From IMG/VR virus record IMGVR_UViG_3300010368_000038, positions 1 through 35,742 of that record: a stretch of DNA of 35,742 nucleotides; one strand, given 5' to 3'. Shown here piece by piece: positions 17,480 through 35,459 of the stretch. How positions within the stretch are numbered: the stretch's first letter is position 1; each line of letters begins with the position of its first letter. Source of the DNA: a virus. The position numbers and the translations under genes are program-made. The notes below the pieces were generated by a model. The model was not told the DNA's origin and did not search any database. It saw only the letters and a list, made by a program, of their open reading frames with translations.

Positions 17480-19726
17480 ATGAACAAGTTAACACAGTAC
17501 CTTGTTGAAGGTATCTTAAAGGAAGTTGGAGAAGGGATCACTGTAATGCTTCCAGGAGGATTCAAACCTCCACACGAAGGTCATTATCAGCTAGCAAAAG
17601 GGTATGCTGACATGTCACAAGTTAAGGAAGTTGTAATTCTCATCGGACCAAAGGATCGAGACGGAATCACAGTTGACGATAGTGAGAAGATTTGGGATAT
17701 GTTGATCGGTGGTGATAGAAATATCAGAGTGCAAAGATCAAAATACCCAAGCCCACTACTAACAGCATATAAGTATATTGAAGATGAAGCGCAGCAAGGA
17801 GAAGCCTATGCGCTTGGATCGAGTAGTAAGGGTAGCGATTACGATCGTATTCGAGGGTTTGTTGATCAACACCAGAAAGATGGTAAGTATCACAAACCAG
17901 GAGTATCAGTAGTAGAACTTCCATTAGAACGATCAAAGCCAATCATATACAAAGGACGTACAGACGATGAGAATGGTAAGCCAATGAGTGCATCTCAGTT
18001 GAGAGCAGATCTAGCAGCTAACGATTTTGAAAACTTTAAGACAAATTACCCAAGCATAAAATCTCCACAACAGCTTCAAACGATCTTTGATACGCTTATA
18101 AAAAAAAAGATGAGCGAGGATGGAGCGGGTCTCTCCCAATCTACTTTGGATGAAGTAGTTTTACGTAAACATTTTGAAGCTTTTAAAGATCTTAAAAGCA
18201 AATTTGATGCATTTATCGATAAACTAAAACAAGAAAACAGAGAAACCAAGCAAGCTTTTCGGAAATTAGTAAATGCAATAAAGACTGGAAAAAGATTAGA
18301 TAAATCAGAAAAGAAAGAGATCGGTGATCAAATGAAAGATGTCCTCAAGCTAGCAGGCATCACCGCAGCTTCTGTAATGCCTGGAGGAGTAATATACCTA
18401 TTGCTGGCAAGAGTACCAGCCCTCAAAAAACACATGACACCATCAGCTTTCTTAGCTGAAGGTCGCATTCCACTAAACGAAGGAGGAGCAGCTGGACACA
18501 TGGCACATCCATACGAGGATATGGATATGACGTTTGATGACATCGAAGATATGATTGATGCAGCTCTATCTGGTAAAATTGAGTATGCTCAAGAGAAGCT
18601 AGACGGTCAAAACCTTATGATGACCTATAAGGATGGACAGCCTTTAGCAGCAAGAAGAAAGACTCAACTCAGAAATGCATCCGAAACAGCTTTTACAAAA
18701 ACGGAGTTTGAAAAGGTAAACGAAAAGTACCCAGACAACATAAAGCTATCTTTCAACGAAGCTTTTGCTGATATGGGAAAGGCAATGGAGAAGTTGTCTC
18801 CAGCAGAGAAGGAGGAGTTTTTTGGAAACGGTACTAAGTATGTAAACTTTGAAATACTGCATCCTGCAAGTGCAAATGCAGTTGCTTATGGTGTTACCGA
18901 ACTACGTCTTCACAACATACAAGAGTATGATGAAAATGGAAATGTAAAAGGAACAGATATACAAGCAGCAAAAAAATTAGATCAAGCTCTTAAACAAGTT
19001 GAAGCGGAAAGTCAAGATACCTACGATATAAAATCAACTGACCTTTTAAGTTTAAAACAAACTAAAGATTACGAAAAACAGAAAGAAGAGCTGCTCAAAG
19101 ATCTTAACAACGTTAGAAGTAGATATCAGCTCGCTAAAGGAGATAAGTTAGGATTATATTTTCAAAACTTTTGGTCTAATTTTATCAAGAACAATGCCAA
19201 AACATACAAATACGATATACCAGACAACGTACTGCAAAACCTTATAAACAGATGGGCTTTTGGAGTAAAAGACCCGCCAATACCACAACTAAAAAAAGAA
19301 ATAGACAATCCAGAGTTTAGTGATTGGGTTACGACTTTTGACAAAGGTGGTAATGTTAAAGATCAGAAGAAGATAGCAGTAGAACCAGTTTCTGATATAT
19401 TTTTAAAGTTAGGTGTGTTTGTATTAGAAAGTATGGAAGGATTAATCGCAATCAATCCAAACGATATAGTAGCAAACACAAAAAAAGAATTAGCGTCTGC
19501 CATTGAGCAAATCAAACAGCAAGCTAAAAATGGCAAAATACAAGACGATGATGCTCCACTGCGTTTTTTAAGATCAGAACTCAAAAGAATTGAAAAAGCA
19601 GGAGGATTTGAAAAGATTGTTCCAACAGAGGGTGTCGTGTTTAAACACAAAGACAAAATATATAAACTCACTGGAACATTTGCACCAGTCAACCAAATCA
19701 TAGGATACATTAAATTCGGAAGATAA
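17480..19726 (+). CDS. Nucleotidyltransferase + LETM1-like + nucleic-acid-ligase-like fusion, probable capsid cargo
   Basis: This 748-residue mosaic has four parts. Residues 1-20 form a leader with YLVE|G and ILKE|V, like prohead-protease sites. Residues 21-200 are an HxGH cytidylyltransferase/NMNAT-like domain (GGFKPPHEGH at 26-35; MSASQLR at 169-175 as the second nucleotide-binding motif). Residues 225-325 form a helical segment with a hydrophobic stretch and VMPGG...PSAF, resembling the LETM1 family. Residues 340-748 resemble a covalent nucleotidyltransferase ligase: motif I KLDG (373-376), a YVNFEIL strand (454-460), motif IV EGVVFK (717-722) and motif V IYKLTG (727-732). Two consecutive sites, FLAE|G and PLNE|G (about 325-335), lie exactly at the LETM1/ligase border. 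Substrates are not known; NAD synthesis or repair and RNA or DNA sealing are possibilities from the families. I see no broken motif. Confidence 0.7.
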   Translation: MNKLTQYLVEGILKEVGEGITVMLPGGFKPPHEGHYQLAKGYADMSQVKEVVILIGPKDRDGITVDDSEKIWDMLIGGDRNIRVQRSKYPSPLLTAYKYIEDEAQQGEAYALGSSSKGSDYDRIRGFVDQHQKDGKYHKPGVSVVELPLERSKPIIYKGRTDDENGKPMSASQLRADLAANDFENFKTNYPSIKSPQQLQTIFDTLIKKKMSEDGAGLSQSTLDEVVLRKHFEAFKDLKSKFDAFIDKLKQENRETKQAFRKLVNAIKTGKRLDKSEKKEIGDQMKDVLKLAGITAASVMPGGVIYLLLARVPALKKHMTPSAFLAEGRIPLNEGGAAGHMAHPYEDMDMTFDDIEDMIDAALSGKIEYAQEKLDGQNLMMTYKDGQPLAARRKTQLRNASETAFTKTEFEKVNEKYPDNIKLSFNEAFADMGKAMEKLSPAEKEEFFGNGTKYVNFEILHPASANAVAYGVTELRLHNIQEYDENGNVKGTDIQAAKKLDQALKQVEAESQDTYDIKSTDLLSLKQTKDYEKQKEELLKDLNNVRSRYQLAKGDKLGLYFQNFWSNFIKNNAKTYKYDIPDNVLQNLINRWAFGVKDPPIPQLKKEIDNPEFSDWVTTFDKGGNVKDQKKIAVEPVSDIFLKLGVFVLESMEGLIAINPNDIVANTKKELASAIEQIKQQAKNGKIQDDDAPLRFLRSELKRIEKAGGFEKIVPTEGVVFKHKDKIYKLTGTFAPVNQIIGYIKFGR

Positions 19727-20022
19727 TGAAATTGAAACCACTATTAGAGAAAAAAGAAGCAATTGCAACGTCACCAAATACAAACATGACATTGCATTAC
19801 GATCCTCAGTTTACTGAGGTTGGAGAAGAAGGTAAGCCTGAGTTTAGCTTTACAATTACAATGTCATCTGTAGGTGGTAAGGAGTTTTACAGAGTGGTTG
19901 CAAGTAAAGAAGAGGAAAAGAAATTAGCCGAGGCTGTGAAGCTTGAGCTTCGAAGAGCTTTAAGGAAGTTTGACAAACGAGTTGAAGGAATCTTAGAGCA
20001 GTACAACATAAAAACAAGATAA
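19726..20022 (+). CDS. Small hypothetical protein with protease-like leader
   Basis: The protein has 98 residues; its ATG overlaps the preceding stop (TAATG). The N-terminus MKLKPLLEKKEA has the short amphipathic form of capsid-targeting leaders, with a possible cut after LLE. The body is a beta strand region (FSFTITMS) followed by a charged helix (EEEKKLAEAVKLELRRALRK). There are no recognised domains, signal or membrane segment. Tight coupling to the upstream fusion suggests a shared role or shared packaging; this is inference. Confidence 0.55.
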   Translation: MKLKPLLEKKEAIATSPNTNMTLHYDPQFTEVGEEGKPEFSFTITMSSVGGKEFYRVVASKEEEKKLAEAVKLELRRALRKFDKRVEGILEQYNIKTR

Positions 20023-20038
20023 AAAATAAAGGTTATGA
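20022..20038 (+). promoter_or_regulatory. Translation leader identical to one 15.7 kb away
   Basis: AAAAATAAAGGTTATGA spans the start codon at 20035 and is repeated exactly at 35723-35739 around another start. AAAGG lies only two bases from ATG, too close for a standard Shine-Dalgarno contact, so an A-rich Bacteroidetes-type initiation signal is more likely. Confidence 0.45.
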
Positions 20039-20514
20039 GTAAGCGAATTAAACGCAAAGAGGGTGACGTTTGGGAAGAAAAAGGAAAAACTTGGACAATT
20101 AAAGACGGCATCAAACAAACAGTTACAAAGTTTACAGAGGCACGAAAGTCGTTTTTAACACCACTTAGTTGTCCAGAGTGCGGAAAATCGATGAAGAGTC
20201 ATTGGGACGTAAAATTCTGGAAAACTCACAGAACTTGTTGGGATTGTGTGATCAAAGCAGAGCATGAAATCAGAACACAAGGGAGGTGGGCAGAATACGA
20301 ACAAGCAAAGGTGTCAGCTAACGCAGCTGCTTTCTTAAAGGAGGTCAGAGAAACGTTAGAGGAGTATGCAGGCAGCAGTAAGGAAGATACTTACGTGACT
20401 GAAAAGGGTAAAGTTGAAAAATGGAGTAATCCAGACAACAAAGTTATTCGTCAGTATATCGATACAGAGATTGAAAAGTTAGAAGAAAAGGTAAAAAAGC
20501 TAAACGAGCGATGA
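20035..20514 (+). CDS. Zinc-ribbon-like small protein
   Basis: The protein has 159 residues. An N-terminal basic region (MSKRIKRKEGDVWEEKGKTW) is followed by a possible four-cysteine zinc site: CPEC near residue 46-49 and CWDC about 24 residues later. The C-terminal half is a charged helix ending in IEKLEEKVKKLNER. It overlaps the next gene by four bases (ATGA). It may bind nucleic acid or protein. Function is not recognised. It lacks the L-x-E leader seen in its neighbours, so it may not be cargo. Confidence 0.55.
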   Translation: MSKRIKRKEGDVWEEKGKTWTIKDGIKQTVTKFTEARKSFLTPLSCPECGKSMKSHWDVKFWKTHRTCWDCVIKAEHEIRTQGRWAEYEQAKVSANAAAFLKEVRETLEEYAGSSKEDTYVTEKGKVEKWSNPDNKVIRQYIDTEIEKLEEKVKKLNER

Positions 20515-21928: not shown

Positions 21929-22327
21929 ATGAAACTAAGAGACTTAATACCACTAAAAGAAGCGCAAGACGATCAATTGTGTATGGAGTACTTTCGTAAA
22001 TTTGGAGAGTGTTGTAATTACAATGCTGTCTTCGATTACGTAGGAATAAAAGATGATACAGAAATTTACACAGCCGATCTTACCAATTTTGGTGATTTGA
22101 GCTTAGTAGTAGCAAAAGCTTACATTGTAGCTAAGGTGACTAAGAAACATGCAATGTTTGGTTTAGTATATGTGTTGAATGGGCTTGCGAAATTAGACGC
22201 TACAATTTGCCGTATTAAACGTACGGAAAAGGATGGACACGTAAATTTAGAAGCAATTATGTTTGACAGCGAAGACACAAAAAACTTCAGTGGTAACGAT
22301 GTTAAATTCAAAAACGTGATCAAATGA
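21929..22327 (+). CDS. Small hypothetical protein with PLKE|A leader
   Basis: The protein has 132 residues. MKLRDLIPLKEAQDD fits a short capsid-targeting leader, with a predicted cut after PLKE leaving an Ala-start body of about 120 residues. The body contains three closely spaced cysteines (C18, C28 and C29 region) and mixed alpha/beta sequence. No family recognised. It overlaps the next gene by four bases (ATGA), so it is part of a tightly coupled set. Confidence 0.55.
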   Translation: MKLRDLIPLKEAQDDQLCMEYFRKFGECCNYNAVFDYVGIKDDTEIYTADLTNFGDLSLVVAKAYIVAKVTKKHAMFGLVYVLNGLAKLDATICRIKRTEKDGHVNLEAIMFDSEDTKNFSGNDVKFKNVIK

Positions 22328-29296: not shown

Positions 29297-30033
29297 CAAT
29301 CGAAGAGAAAATAGAAATAAGAGAGTATATTAGACAGCAAGCTGAGAAGATGCGGAAGGAAAACACCACCGCAAATATCGCTACTTATGATACTCCAAAC
29401 GCATTTACTGGAGACGAGGATGATGAGGGAACGCAAGCTGTTGATCTTACCGATCCAGAATACGCATACTCTATTAAAGGACCAAAGAACAGAAATCCTA
29501 AATACTCTGTTAAGTTGAACGAAGCATCCTACAACGATTTTAAAAGAGACGAATCGCGATCTAGCATACAAAAGATTAATGCCAACATCTTAGAGGTAAA
29601 CAAAAATATCCGTGAATTGGCTCGTATGCTCAATCACAGTATAAAATTAAAAACAGAGCAAAGATTAGACAATAGCATCCACTGGAAGCGTACAAATGAG
29701 GCTCTAAAAAAGATGCATTACAGAATCTCAGTGTTGTCTGAAAAAGCTAACGAGCTCTACGATCTAAATGAAGCTACTGCACAGCAATTAAAAACACAAT
29801 TGCTAACTATTTTTAAAGATGCAGGGTACACGTTAACTGCTAACGACATAGAGTATAACACGGCTGGAGCTGATGTGTATGAGTTTGACGTTATGATTAA
29901 CGGAGAGCCATATGCAATTGATTACGACAGAGGTAGTTTAGTTTTTCAAGACTACAATGAAGAAGTACCACTTGGAAACATTAAGCAACCCGAAATGGTA
30001 GTTCAAAACATTCAAAAAACACTACAAGTATGA
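29293..30033 (+). CDS. Probable prohead core-associated protein
   Basis: The protein has 246 residues. The N-terminal 30 residues are a charged helix (KIEIREYIRQQAEKMRKEN). An acidic linker (GDEDDEGTQAVDLTDPE) and a central coiled coil (SIQKINANILEVNKNIRELA) follow, then a small C-terminal alpha/beta domain (YEFDVMINGEPYAIDYDRG). Sites SVKLNE|A and YDLNE|A fit the prohead-protease pattern and flank the coiled coil, so it may be cut during maturation like T4 core proteins. It overlaps both neighbours by four bases. Family not named by me. Confidence 0.55.
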   Translation: MTIEEKIEIREYIRQQAEKMRKENTTANIATYDTPNAFTGDEDDEGTQAVDLTDPEYAYSIKGPKNRNPKYSVKLNEASYNDFKRDESRSSIQKINANILEVNKNIRELARMLNHSIKLKTEQRLDNSIHWKRTNEALKKMHYRISVLSEKANELYDLNEATAQQLKTQLLTIFKDAGYTLTANDIEYNTAGADVYEFDVMINGEPYAIDYDRGSLVFQDYNEEVPLGNIKQPEMVVQNIQKTLQV

Positions 30034-30647
30034 AAAGAGTATTAATTGATTATATAGGGTCTATTGATGTGACTCCGCAGCAGATTAATGAATCAATGAA
30101 CAAGAACAACGGTAAGTTAATCGTATCCGGCATCATGCAACGAGCTAGTGACAACTCAGAGAAAAACTTCAACCAAAACGGACGAAGCTATCCTCTAGGC
30201 ATTCTTAAACCAGAGTGCGAAAAGTATAAGAAGACCTTTATTGCAGAGCGTCGAGCGTTAGGTGAGCTAGATCATCCAGATTCTCAAGTAGTAAACCTAT
30301 CCAACGTGTCACACAATATATTGGATCTTTGGTGGCAAGGAAACGACTTGATGGGTAAGATTGAAATACTAGGAACACCATCAGGAAACATAGCTAAAGA
30401 GCTATTGAAAGCCGGTATCCGATTAGGTATATCATCTCGAGGAATGGGATCAGTTAAAGAGCTTGGTGAAGGTAAGGTAGAAGTTCAAGATGATTTTGAA
30501 ATCGTATGTTGGGATTTGGTTAGTAATCCATCCACACAAGGAGCGTTTATGAACCCATCACTTAATGAGAGTGTTCAATCAAGAACAAATAACAAGTACA
30601 CAAAGATTAATTCACTAATCAGTGACATAATAACAGTAATGCAATGA
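30030..30647 (+). CDS. 21: Prohead protease (gp21-like)
   Basis: This is the serine protease of the T4 gp21 (herpesvirus assemblin-like) fold that digests scaffold and trims capsid proteins after L/I-x-E sites. Visible features are FNQNGRSYP after a SGIMQRAS strand, the active-site histidine region GELDHP (His 82), the serine region GISSRGMGS (Ser 135/136), and the closing DLVSNPSTQGAFM. Length 205 is near T4 gp21 (212). The C-terminal PSLNE|S could be an autocleavage site. It overlaps both neighbours by four bases. Its presence is the basis for predicting cleavage sites elsewhere in this window. Confidence 0.93.
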   Translation: MKRVLIDYIGSIDVTPQQINESMNKNNGKLIVSGIMQRASDNSEKNFNQNGRSYPLGILKPECEKYKKTFIAERRALGELDHPDSQVVNLSNVSHNILDLWWQGNDLMGKIEILGTPSGNIAKELLKAGIRLGISSRGMGSVKELGEGKVEVQDDFEIVCWDLVSNPSTQGAFMNPSLNESVQSRTNNKYTKINSLISDIITVMQ

Positions 30648-33207: not shown

Positions 33208-34803
33208 ATGAATTTATTCGAAGGAATGGGAGAAACCAATAGAAGTGTAGAAAACAAAGCACTTATCTCCAAATGGTCTAGAACAGGCCTACTAGAAGGA
33301 CTTGGTTCTAAGAGTGAAGAAGCTACTGTAGCTGTCATGTTAGAAAACCAAGCAAAACAACTTTTGAAGGAAGGATCTGCTACTACAGCTGGTACCGCTG
33401 GTGCTGGATATGAGCAGTGGACTGGAGTTGCTCTTCCGTTGATCAGACGAGTATACGCTGAAATCGCAGCAAAGGAATTTGTTAGCGTTCAGCCAATGAA
33501 CTTGCCATCAGGATTAGTATTCTATCTTGACTTCAAATACTCTAACGATAAAAACCCATTTGGATTTGATCCAGAAGGACAAAACCAAACTGGTACATTA
33601 CAAGGTATCACAGACACCACTGGAGATCCGTCTGATGGTCTTTACGGAGCTGGTCGTTTTGGGTACTCTATCAAGAATGTTGCAGGAACTGCTGGTGCAA
33701 TAACAACTGGATCAGTGAGCGCTGCTGACGTATTCTACGATGGTAACTACACTGCATCTATTGCACAATACGCTGCTGTAGCTGTAGCAACATCATCTAT
33801 GTCAGCACTTGATTTAGAAGGTGTTCGATCTTTCCGATTATTCTCAGGATCTACTGAATTAACTGTACTTCCTGCATTTACGCAAGTAGTGGGTGGTAAC
33901 GTACAATTCGTTGTAACTGGAACTGCAGTATCAACTGGATCTTTCACAGCTAACGTATCTTACTCAGTACAGCCTACTAACGATGACAGAGGTGACTTCG
34001 AAGCTAAGCCAGTTTCTTCTACAAACAGAGACTTAGATACAGACTTGAACATTCCAAGCATCGAATTGCAAATGCGTTCGATTCCAGTAACTGCTAAGAC
34101 TCGTAAATTGAAAGCAAGCTGGACTCCAGAATTCGCTCAAGACCTTAACGCTTACCACTCTGTGGATGCTGAAGGAGAATTGACAGCTATGTTGTCTGAG
34201 TACGTTTCAATGGAAATTGACTTAGAGATCTTAGATATGTTGATCAACTCTGCAGCTACACAAGACTACTGGTCAGCTAAAGTTGGTCAAGAGTATGACG
34301 CTGCTTCTAACTCGTTTGTACAATCTCAATTCAACGGTCAAGCATATATCCAAGGTACTTGGTTTGCAACTTTAGGTACTAAAGTTCAAAAAGTATCTAA
34401 CGATATCCACGCTAAGACTTTGAGAGGTGGTGCTAACTTCTTAGTATGTTCTCCACGTATTTCAACAATCATGGAATCAATCCCAGGATTTGCTGCTAAT
34501 ACAGACGGAAACAAAATGAAGTATGCAATGGGAGTTCGTAACATAGGATCGATCGCAAGCTCGTACGATGTTTACAAAAACCCTTACATGCAAGAGAACA
34601 CAATCTTGATGGGATTCAGAGGTAGCCAATTCTTGGAAACTGGAGCTGTTTATGCACCATATGTTCCATTAATGTTGACTCCTTTAGTGTACGATCCAAA
34701 CAACTTTACGCCACGTAGAGGGGTAATGACAAGATATGCTAAACTTGTAACAAGACCCGAGTTTTACGGACGTATCAACGTTGCTGATCTTAACATCCTT
34801 TAA
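33208..34803 (+). CDS. 23: Major capsid protein precursor (gp23-like)
   Basis: The protein has 531 residues (T4 gp23 has 521). It shows the T4 gp23 pattern: an N-terminal propeptide with SKWSRTGLLEGLGSKSEE and VMLENQAKQLLKE, a predicted cut at LLKE|G after residue 55, then the mature start region (VALPLIRRVYAEIAAKEFVS; VQPMNLPSGLVFYLDF). Later blocks include RKLKASWTPEFAQDLNAYH, LVCSPRISTIMESIPGF, and a C-terminal YAPYVPLMLTPLVYDPNNFT. Codon choice is more uniform, with many GCT, GGT and TCT codons, as expected for very high expression. A strong terminator follows within 25 bases. No gp24 vertex paralogue is seen in the window. Confidence 0.95.
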   Translation: MNLFEGMGETNRSVENKALISKWSRTGLLEGLGSKSEEATVAVMLENQAKQLLKEGSATTAGTAGAGYEQWTGVALPLIRRVYAEIAAKEFVSVQPMNLPSGLVFYLDFKYSNDKNPFGFDPEGQNQTGTLQGITDTTGDPSDGLYGAGRFGYSIKNVAGTAGAITTGSVSAADVFYDGNYTASIAQYAAVAVATSSMSALDLEGVRSFRLFSGSTELTVLPAFTQVVGGNVQFVVTGTAVSTGSFTANVSYSVQPTNDDRGDFEAKPVSSTNRDLDTDLNIPSIELQMRSIPVTAKTRKLKASWTPEFAQDLNAYHSVDAEGELTAMLSEYVSMEIDLEILDMLINSAATQDYWSAKVGQEYDAASNSFVQSQFNGQAYIQGTWFATLGTKVQKVSNDIHAKTLRGGANFLVCSPRISTIMESIPGFAANTDGNKMKYAMGVRNIGSIASSYDVYKNPYMQENTILMGFRGSQFLETGAVYAPYVPLMLTPLVYDPNNFTPRRGVMTRYAKLVTRPEFYGRINVADLNIL

Positions 34804-34899: not shown

Positions 34900-35459
34900 A
34901 TGGAAAAGCATTACATATATAAACTAACAAGCCCAAGTGGCAAGGTGTACATCGGTCGAACAAATGATTTTGAAAAAGAATGATAAGCCACCTAAGTACA
35001 GCTAATCAGGGGGAGAAGCGAAAGTTGTACACTGCAATTAGAAAGTACGGATGGGATAATTTTACAAAAGAAATTATAGCAGAAATACAAGGAGAGAGGG
35101 CAGCACAAGTGCAAGAATTGTACTACATTACAGAGTATAATAGTTTTCATAACGGATACAACTGCACAATCCAGACCGGAGGAGGTGATAACTGGAAAGA
35201 CAAAAGAGGTACGGAGCAATGGAAGGAGTTTAAAGCCTTGATGAAATCTTTAAATCAATCAGGAAGAATGCACGGAAAGACCCACACCCCAGAAACAAAA
35301 GCCAAACTACGAGCAGCAGCAAAGGGCAGATTCTCCCTCCCTTGGTTCCAAGACAAGTATGGACAAGAAGAAGGTTTAGCTAAATACGAAGAACGTAGAA
35401 ACTTCCTCAAGAATCGAAAAATAAACAAAGACGCCAATGGTAAATTTATCCCCTCCTAG
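34900..35459 (+). pseudogene. Frameshifted GIY-YIG homing endonuclease with NUMOD3 region
   Basis: The first frame starts at ATG 34900 and gives MEKHYIYKLTSPSGKVYIGR then TNDFEKE and a TGA at 34981. The second frame opens at ATG 34980 with ISHLSTANQ and continues with KLYTAIRKYGWDNF, normal GIY-YIG sequence, to 35459. Adding one A to the A5 run at 34973-34977 would read EKRMISHL and join them into about 186 residues. The C-terminal half has a NUMOD3-like DNA-binding motif (HGKTHTPETKAKLRAAAKGR). It is a free-standing homing endonuclease of the Seg type. It could be a decayed element, a sequencing error in the homopolymer, a -1 slip, or a split gene reinitiating at the ATGA overlap. Confidence 0.8.

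Follow-up and report, generated by a model that had tools for sequence, protein, structure and literature searches.

A single viral gene is predicted to encode two enzymes in one chain, a nucleotidyltransferase (NTase) and an RNA ligase of a new kind, with a conserved border before the ligase that resembles the cleavage sites of T4-type head maturation proteases. The gene lies in the window (the whole stretch of DNA analysed, all 35,742 nucleotides of the IMG/VR virus record IMGVR_UViG_3300010368_000038), a 35.7-kb virus record with T4-type late genes for terminase (24976), portal (26576), protease, and major capsid protein (MCP). The preferred reading, to which we give about an even chance, is that the product is a packaged precursor whose cleavage by the head protease would release an NMNAT-like enzyme together with an RNA ligase, both of which would enter the host early. 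The features concerned are listed below; arrows within motifs mark a putative cut or a module border.

17480..19726, plus strand: 748-aa fusion with an ATG start, comprising leader, HIGH-family nucleotidyltransferase, helical middle, disordered linker, and RNA-ligase-type domain
17480..17524, plus strand: N-terminal leader, residues 1-15 (MNKLTQYLVEGILKE), holding LVE↓G and ILKE, recognised by leader form
17534..18118, plus strand: HIGH-family nucleotidyltransferase, residues 19-213, with HxGH at 17573-17584 and SASQLR at 17987-18004
18143..18433, plus strand: helical middle, residues 222-318, with PGG...PSAF, from AlphaFold2 helices and the alignment
18437..18496, plus strand: disordered linker, residues 320-339, with FLAE↓G (18449-18460) and PLNE↓G, pLDDT < 50
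18473..18481, plus strand: predicted head-protease site LNE↓G (332-334 ↓ 335) at the ligase border, from conservation
18482..19723, plus strand: RNA-ligase-type domain, residues 335-748, with catalytic Lys373 at 18596-18598
19726..20022, plus strand: neighbouring 98-aa protein with leader MKLKPLLEKKEA, from the leader motif
21929..22327, plus strand: neighbouring 132-aa protein with leader MKLRDLIPLKEA, from the leader motif
30030..30647, plus strand: T4 gp21-type head maturation protease (phrog_207, E 7e-53)
33208..34803, plus strand: major capsid protein, recognised from its sequence and four relatives

The preliminary description placed the fusion in one chain from 17480 to 19726, and exactly these coordinates bound a single plus-strand open reading frame of 748 aa. 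The motifs attributed to it are present, namely HxGH (PPHEGH, residues 30-35), SASQLR (170-175), KxDG (EK373LDG), EGVVFK (717-722), and PGG...PSAF, as are the protease-type motifs LVE↓G (residues 8-10), LAE↓G (325-327), and LNE↓G (332-334); the gp21 protease claimed for the same genome is likewise found, at 30030-30647. The fusion gene is on the same strand as the head cluster, a few kb upstream of terminase, portal, and protease, and its homologue in the cultured Microcystis phage Mel-JY01 precedes the terminase and prohead protease in the gene order of the window. Among related records, a gp21-type protease was found in 21 of 28. The 98-aa neighbour also adjoins the ligase gene in L001, L002, and L004; a zinc-ribbon protein (window 20035-20514) is conserved directly 3' of the NTase-ligase gene in relatives, and the gene directly 3' of the MCP gene (34980-35459) has, by eye, the look of a GIY-YIG-type homing endonuclease. 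An AlphaFold2 model of the fusion built on 42 aligned sequences has a mean pLDDT of 84.6, with well-predicted domains and poor prediction at residues 1-6, 211-225, 320-339, and 685-689.

The HxGH/SASQLR nucleotidyltransferase that had been proposed is borne out by the predicted structure, which has a fold of the phosphopantetheine adenylyltransferase (PPAT)/NMNAT type. PPAT is the top fold match of residues 17-214 (Z 14.2, rmsd 2.5, 155 aligned), in a near-tie with the NMN adenylyltransferases (Z 13.2 for the NMNAT/Nudix protein 2qjt), and the domain combines the fold with the HxGH and SxSxxR motifs of NadM, NadR, and NadD. By sequence profile it matches phrog_395 (E 1e-5), and the best NCBIfam matches are to NaMNAT/NMNAT in most family members, all of them far below cut-off (at best 19.2 bits against a curated NMNAT cut-off of 240). 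Given the near-tied folds and the low family scores, assignment to PPAT or NMNAT singly was rejected; the domain is most likely an NMNAT-like adenylyltransferase, as judged from sequence and model. It resembles phage NadR/NadM-type NMN adenylyltransferases in being a HIGH-family NTase with the NMNAT/PPAT fold and in the P-loop kinase added, or the Nudix gene alongside, in some fusion relatives, whereas it differs from them in scoring far below each NMNAT cut-off and in being fused to an RNA ligase. A NadV-type NAPRTase, sought as an NAD-pathway partner, turned up in a single one of the 14 records tested, which include fragments. A gene annotated TiaS lies near the NTase of Flavobacterium phage immuto. 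Not every family member has the helical middle (L012, L016, and L017 lack it), and its earlier label as LETM1-like had to be dropped, as Pfam LETM1_RBD did not hit any of nine records, the present one among them, at E ≤ 10. Matches of the full fusion protein to Pfam RIBIOP_C (E 0.006) and to CysRS (E 0.0095) were taken as chance helical similarity.

Further enzymes are found in long relatives of up to ~1.9 kaa, which add an AAA_33/Zeta-type kinase, a HAD phosphatase, a ParB-like part, and small repeats. Their modules start directly after [LIV]xE, the upstream sequences being unrelated: the junctions before PRKKGQHR read GLSE↓A, ILTE↓A, IINE↓A, GVSE↓A, and DVRE↓A, and those before FAVRGNK or its variants read VNE↓A, LSE↓A, and MKE↓A, while no such module start was found for the SH3-like and SPSRK segments. 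Moreover, the kinase begins as MDILLE↓GVNDPG when it stands alone and as NINE↓GVNDPG or NVTE↓GVNDPG when embedded, and the HAD enzyme occurs as a standalone MIKLAEILNE↓KQLGKRL in two genomes (G003 and G001) that also hold the NTase-ligase fusion. Only slightly short of an even chance, in our estimate, is the broader reading that these proteins of uncultured T4-like phages are precursors built from NTase, RNA ligase, kinase, phosphatase, and further modules, joined at head-protease sites, cut in the prohead, and injected as an RNA-repair/cofactor kit, with an internal start replacing the ligase cut in some relatives.

The same composition may instead describe a packaged kit for repairing nucleic-acid ends that makes no NAD, wherein NTase, kinase, phosphatase, and ligase would all be devoted to RNA (or DNA) ends, the HIGH domain yielding something other than NAD, such as a CoA precursor or a nucleotide-linked product. 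We regard this as somewhat doubtful. The AAA_33/Zeta-type kinase of the relatives, their HAD domain with its weak PNKP-phosphatase similarity (E 0.0072), the leader-bearing Nudix genes that adjoin the ligase gene, the first rank of PPAT among NTase folds, and the scarcity of NAPRTase are all consistent with it; however, NCBIfam leans to NMNAT/NaMNAT in most family members, and a nicotinamide-riboside kinase like that of NadR would be an equally good identity for the kinase.

For the preferred reading, that of a precursor cut into an NMNAT-like enzyme and a ligase, evidence comes from the border before the ligase. The motif [LIVFMY]xE[GASV] has nine matches within the fusion protein, so bare protease motifs are not significant alone, and LNE↓GG is singled out because it is conserved in relatives. 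In 38 non-redundant relatives, P3 is always L or I and P1 is E in 30; the residues before GG are accordingly L/I-x-E in those 30 and L-x-M in the other 8. Within the E group under stricter clustering (17 sequences), P1 is always E, P3 only L or I, and P4 mostly hydrophobic, with P2 and P5-P10 variable; the relatives being phylogenetically related, such counts are of non-independent observations. LR756508 has no LxEGG, whereas the border in the Mel-JY01 protein (WWT39297.1) reads IIAE↓GGLGGHM. T4 gp21 cleaves after L/I-X-E (PMC9026906), a motif that here falls at a domain border and that has the form of a site in the MCP of the same phage (LLKE↓G). At the expected end of its propeptide, the MCP reads QLLKE↓GSA (QLIKE↓GSA or QLIDE↓ASR in relatives), which is probably where the propeptide ends and thus the phage's own L-x-E↓G site. 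Of the cuts suggested earlier, PLNE↓G between the second and third parts holds up as a protease-type site, with L/I-x-E↓GG in 30/38 relatives and a predicted disordered stretch around it. FLAE↓G is not supported as a conserved second site, for the nearest relatives have AVSE↓G or AVNE↓S in its place and more distant ones have lost it, and YLVE↓G at the front was rejected as a conserved cut, since FLVES or FLVDS replaces it in relatives 72-74% identical and WLVKP is also found. Conservation therefore bears on one border, and there the idea that LNE↓G is a head-protease site is supported.

In the 8/38 non-redundant relatives with M-type borders, the E is replaced by ATG within AAGGAG-TTATTATTA-ATG↓GGA. 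Exact AAGGAG precedes the border ATG in 16 of the 19 M-type sequences read, even though AAGGAG encodes just 8 of 277 Lys-Glu pairs elsewhere in these loci, and 21 of their 968 internal Met codons have such a site (score ≥5). This ATG is read as an in-frame internal start whose product would be the ligase alone, beginning with the same residues; that one position is served by two unrelated devices argues for the free ligase as the intended product. The putative nested in-frame gene start is seen at L022, L031, L034, L036, L038, L057, L067, L070, and close relatives. LR756500 encodes the ligase separately, behind a leader of its own, MKFLKSYEEFLNENLILE↓GGSYGHL.

These observations also bear on a simpler account, which we consider unlikely, in which a late, non-packaged two-enzyme protein repairs RNA and supplies a cofactor inside the infected cell, LxE↓GG being nothing but the conserved start of the ligase fold. 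Such an account accommodates the GG and GHMxHP residues as part of the invariant ligase domain, allows the glutamate at P1 to be structural, and fits the L026-type group, which has no leader. It does not readily explain why P3 and P1 are kept while P2 and the upstream residues are free, why disorder is predicted up to residue ~340, or why the junction form is shared by other modules; likewise, an ATG with a Shine-Dalgarno sequence in place of the glutamate is most sensible if the border is a functional end.

The freed C-terminal domain would be an RNA ligase. The KxDG/EGVVFK ligase-like domain of the preliminary description proved well founded: modelled alone, the domain reaches a pLDDT of 90.5 and adopts an RNA-ligase fold, with Naegleria RNA ligase as the best structural match (Z 10.0, rmsd 3.9, 187 aligned), followed by matches that include T4 Rnl1 (Z 9.0), Trl1 (8.6), an editing ligase (8.6), and Rnl2 (8.1). 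K373, D375, G376, R392, E458, E717, and K729 are invariant in the alignment of 42 sequences, and motifs I, III, IV, and V of RNA ligases are present together with the catalytic lysine. A DNA-sealing role, such as one on nicks of the incoming phage genome, is highly improbable: the covalent nucleotidyltransferase superfamily does include DNA ligases, and these appear lower in the structure list, but RNA ligases occupy the first 27 places among the structural matches (Z 10.0 to 7.6), with DNA ligases at 7.5 or less and mostly at 5.5-6.8.

The ligase domain falls outside the families searched. Pfam has no family above cut-off (RNA_ligase scores 14 bits against a cut-off of 27), PHROG has none for the domain, and a PDB profile search returned no ligase relative, its matches to ribosomal protein eS6 being set aside as chance. 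It shares with T4 Rnl1, Rnl2, Naegleria Rnl, and Trl1 the fold and motifs I (KxDG), III, IV (EGVVF), and V (YKLTG), but differs from them in matching no PDB sequence and no Pfam family above cut-off, in the ~200 mostly helical residues that separate motifs III and IV, and in an invariant GGxxGHxxHP front. A scan of viral contigs yielded at least 586 confirmed ligase-domain loci in uncultured viruses; by comparison, only three phage records (Mel-JY01, LR756508, and LR756500) carry the domain, and the bacterial occurrences are confined to six short MAG contigs that are probably viral. Sequence and model together thus suggest a new kind of RNA ligase, an abundant RNA-ligase-type family absent from Pfam and PHROGs. 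A 1909-residue open frame (L143) ends in the same ligase, on a contig that is filed under a Flavobacteriales MAG and is probably viral.

Packaging would require a targeting signal, for which the leader is the candidate. It appears to form a capsid-targeting-like helix, its likeness to T4 leaders being one of form only, and like T4-type packaged head proteins the fusion has both an N-terminal leader of ~10-19 residues and a cognate protease in the genome. The pattern M-x-x-L-x-x-[WYF]-L-V-x(3)-[IL]-[IL]-x-E, or one near it, is shared by the majority of relatives whose 5' ends are complete; no leader precedes the NTase in L026, L035, L040, L055, and L089. In T4, an aspartate at the last leader position blocks cutting and not targeting (PMC9026906), and the fusion leader may for this reason still target. 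Counted per genome, loose LxE[AGS] motifs near N-termini are in weak excess (30 vs 21, 16 vs 18, 23 vs 15, and 13 vs 7), which makes them a poor test; a tighter leader motif was thus used. MIKLKDILxE-type leaders were seen at 58 N-termini across loci against 1.7 expected, a count inflated by the relatedness of the genomes and by choice of the motif after looking at the same data, though the excess is still very large. They sit on Nudix, HAD, HD-like, and unknown proteins.

Several leader-bearing genes adjoin or resemble those of the fusion. Directly 5' of the NTase-ligase gene, a Nudix gene with the leader MSIPKLKDLLxE (or MIKLKDLLNE) is found in relatives at these positions:

L022:81-515, leader-bearing Nudix gene
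L028:49-483, leader-bearing Nudix gene
L064:2464-2898, leader-bearing Nudix gene
L065:1534-1974, leader-bearing Nudix gene

At L092:8609-12208 (contig G003) and L118:3344-5525 (G001), unrelated small genes all start with approximately MIKLKDILxE and encode a HAD phosphatase, an HD-like protein, a protein that by eye looks like an ADP-ribosyltransferase, and unknown proteins; on sequence grounds, this run is possibly an island of packaged effectors. Mel-JY01 has three paralogues starting MIKLxSLxxEIISDRVWHLT or similar (L135:3276-5718), which are candidate packaged proteins. In immuto, a 907-aa protein annotated as NMN adenylyltransferase (L091:7173-9896) has, by eye, a Pol-beta-like front and a HEMIHH metallopeptidase-like motif, and the gene after it is of HAD type with the N-terminus MGNLADLLLE.

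Known packaged systems offer partial parallels. T4 internal head proteins and Alt share with the fusion a short N-terminal leader, an L-x-E↓G/A site, a late head-gene setting, and a genome-encoded protease of gp21 type (PMC9026906, PMC9958956). In T4, an internal protein is one small protein or one enzyme, whereas the fusion joins two enzymes in one chain with an internal border site, and its relatives hold more. Phage polyvalent proteins (Iyer et al., 2017, PMC5512222) string several unrelated enzyme domains together, and their packaging and injection have been predicted; the fusion family likewise places unrelated enzyme domains in one chain in a head-gene setting, but its ligase domain lies outside Pfam and PHROG, and the chain is predicted to be split because its junctions carry head-protease sites or internal starts, a kind of splitting for which no description was found in the text consulted. 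Reviews cover packaged ADP-ribosyltransferase and Nudix enzymes, as well as the sets of ligase, kinase, and HAD with which phages repair RNA (PMC9503650, PMC7824862). A literature search found no paper on Mel-JY01 or on prohead-protease polyproteins.

According to the preferred reading, the fusion gene would give rise to a precursor late in infection, its first ~15 residues acting in the role of a T4 capsid-targeting sequence to carry it into the prohead core. The gp21-type protease would then cut at LNE↓G (334/335), freeing a ligase that starts GGAAGHM from the NTase-bearing N-terminal part, and both parts would exit the head together with the DNA. In the new host, the ligase could reseal RNA broken by host defences (e.g., tRNA anticodon nucleases) ahead of phage gene expression, while the transferase could remake a nucleotide cofactor such as NAD+. 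We infer the packaging, cutting, injection, substrates, and anti-defence role; what sequences and models show are the folds, catalytic motifs, L/I-x-E↓G border conservation, internal start, neighbour leaders, and protease co-occurrence.

Proteins that a phage packages are at work ahead of any phage gene expression, and to our knowledge few are known outside T4 and its kin. A leader combined with L/I-x-E↓G/A borders would provide a sequence rule for predicting packaged enzymes in uncultured phages, and the idea of injected RNA repair could be put to a direct test, for instance in Mel-JY01, a Microcystis phage that is in culture.
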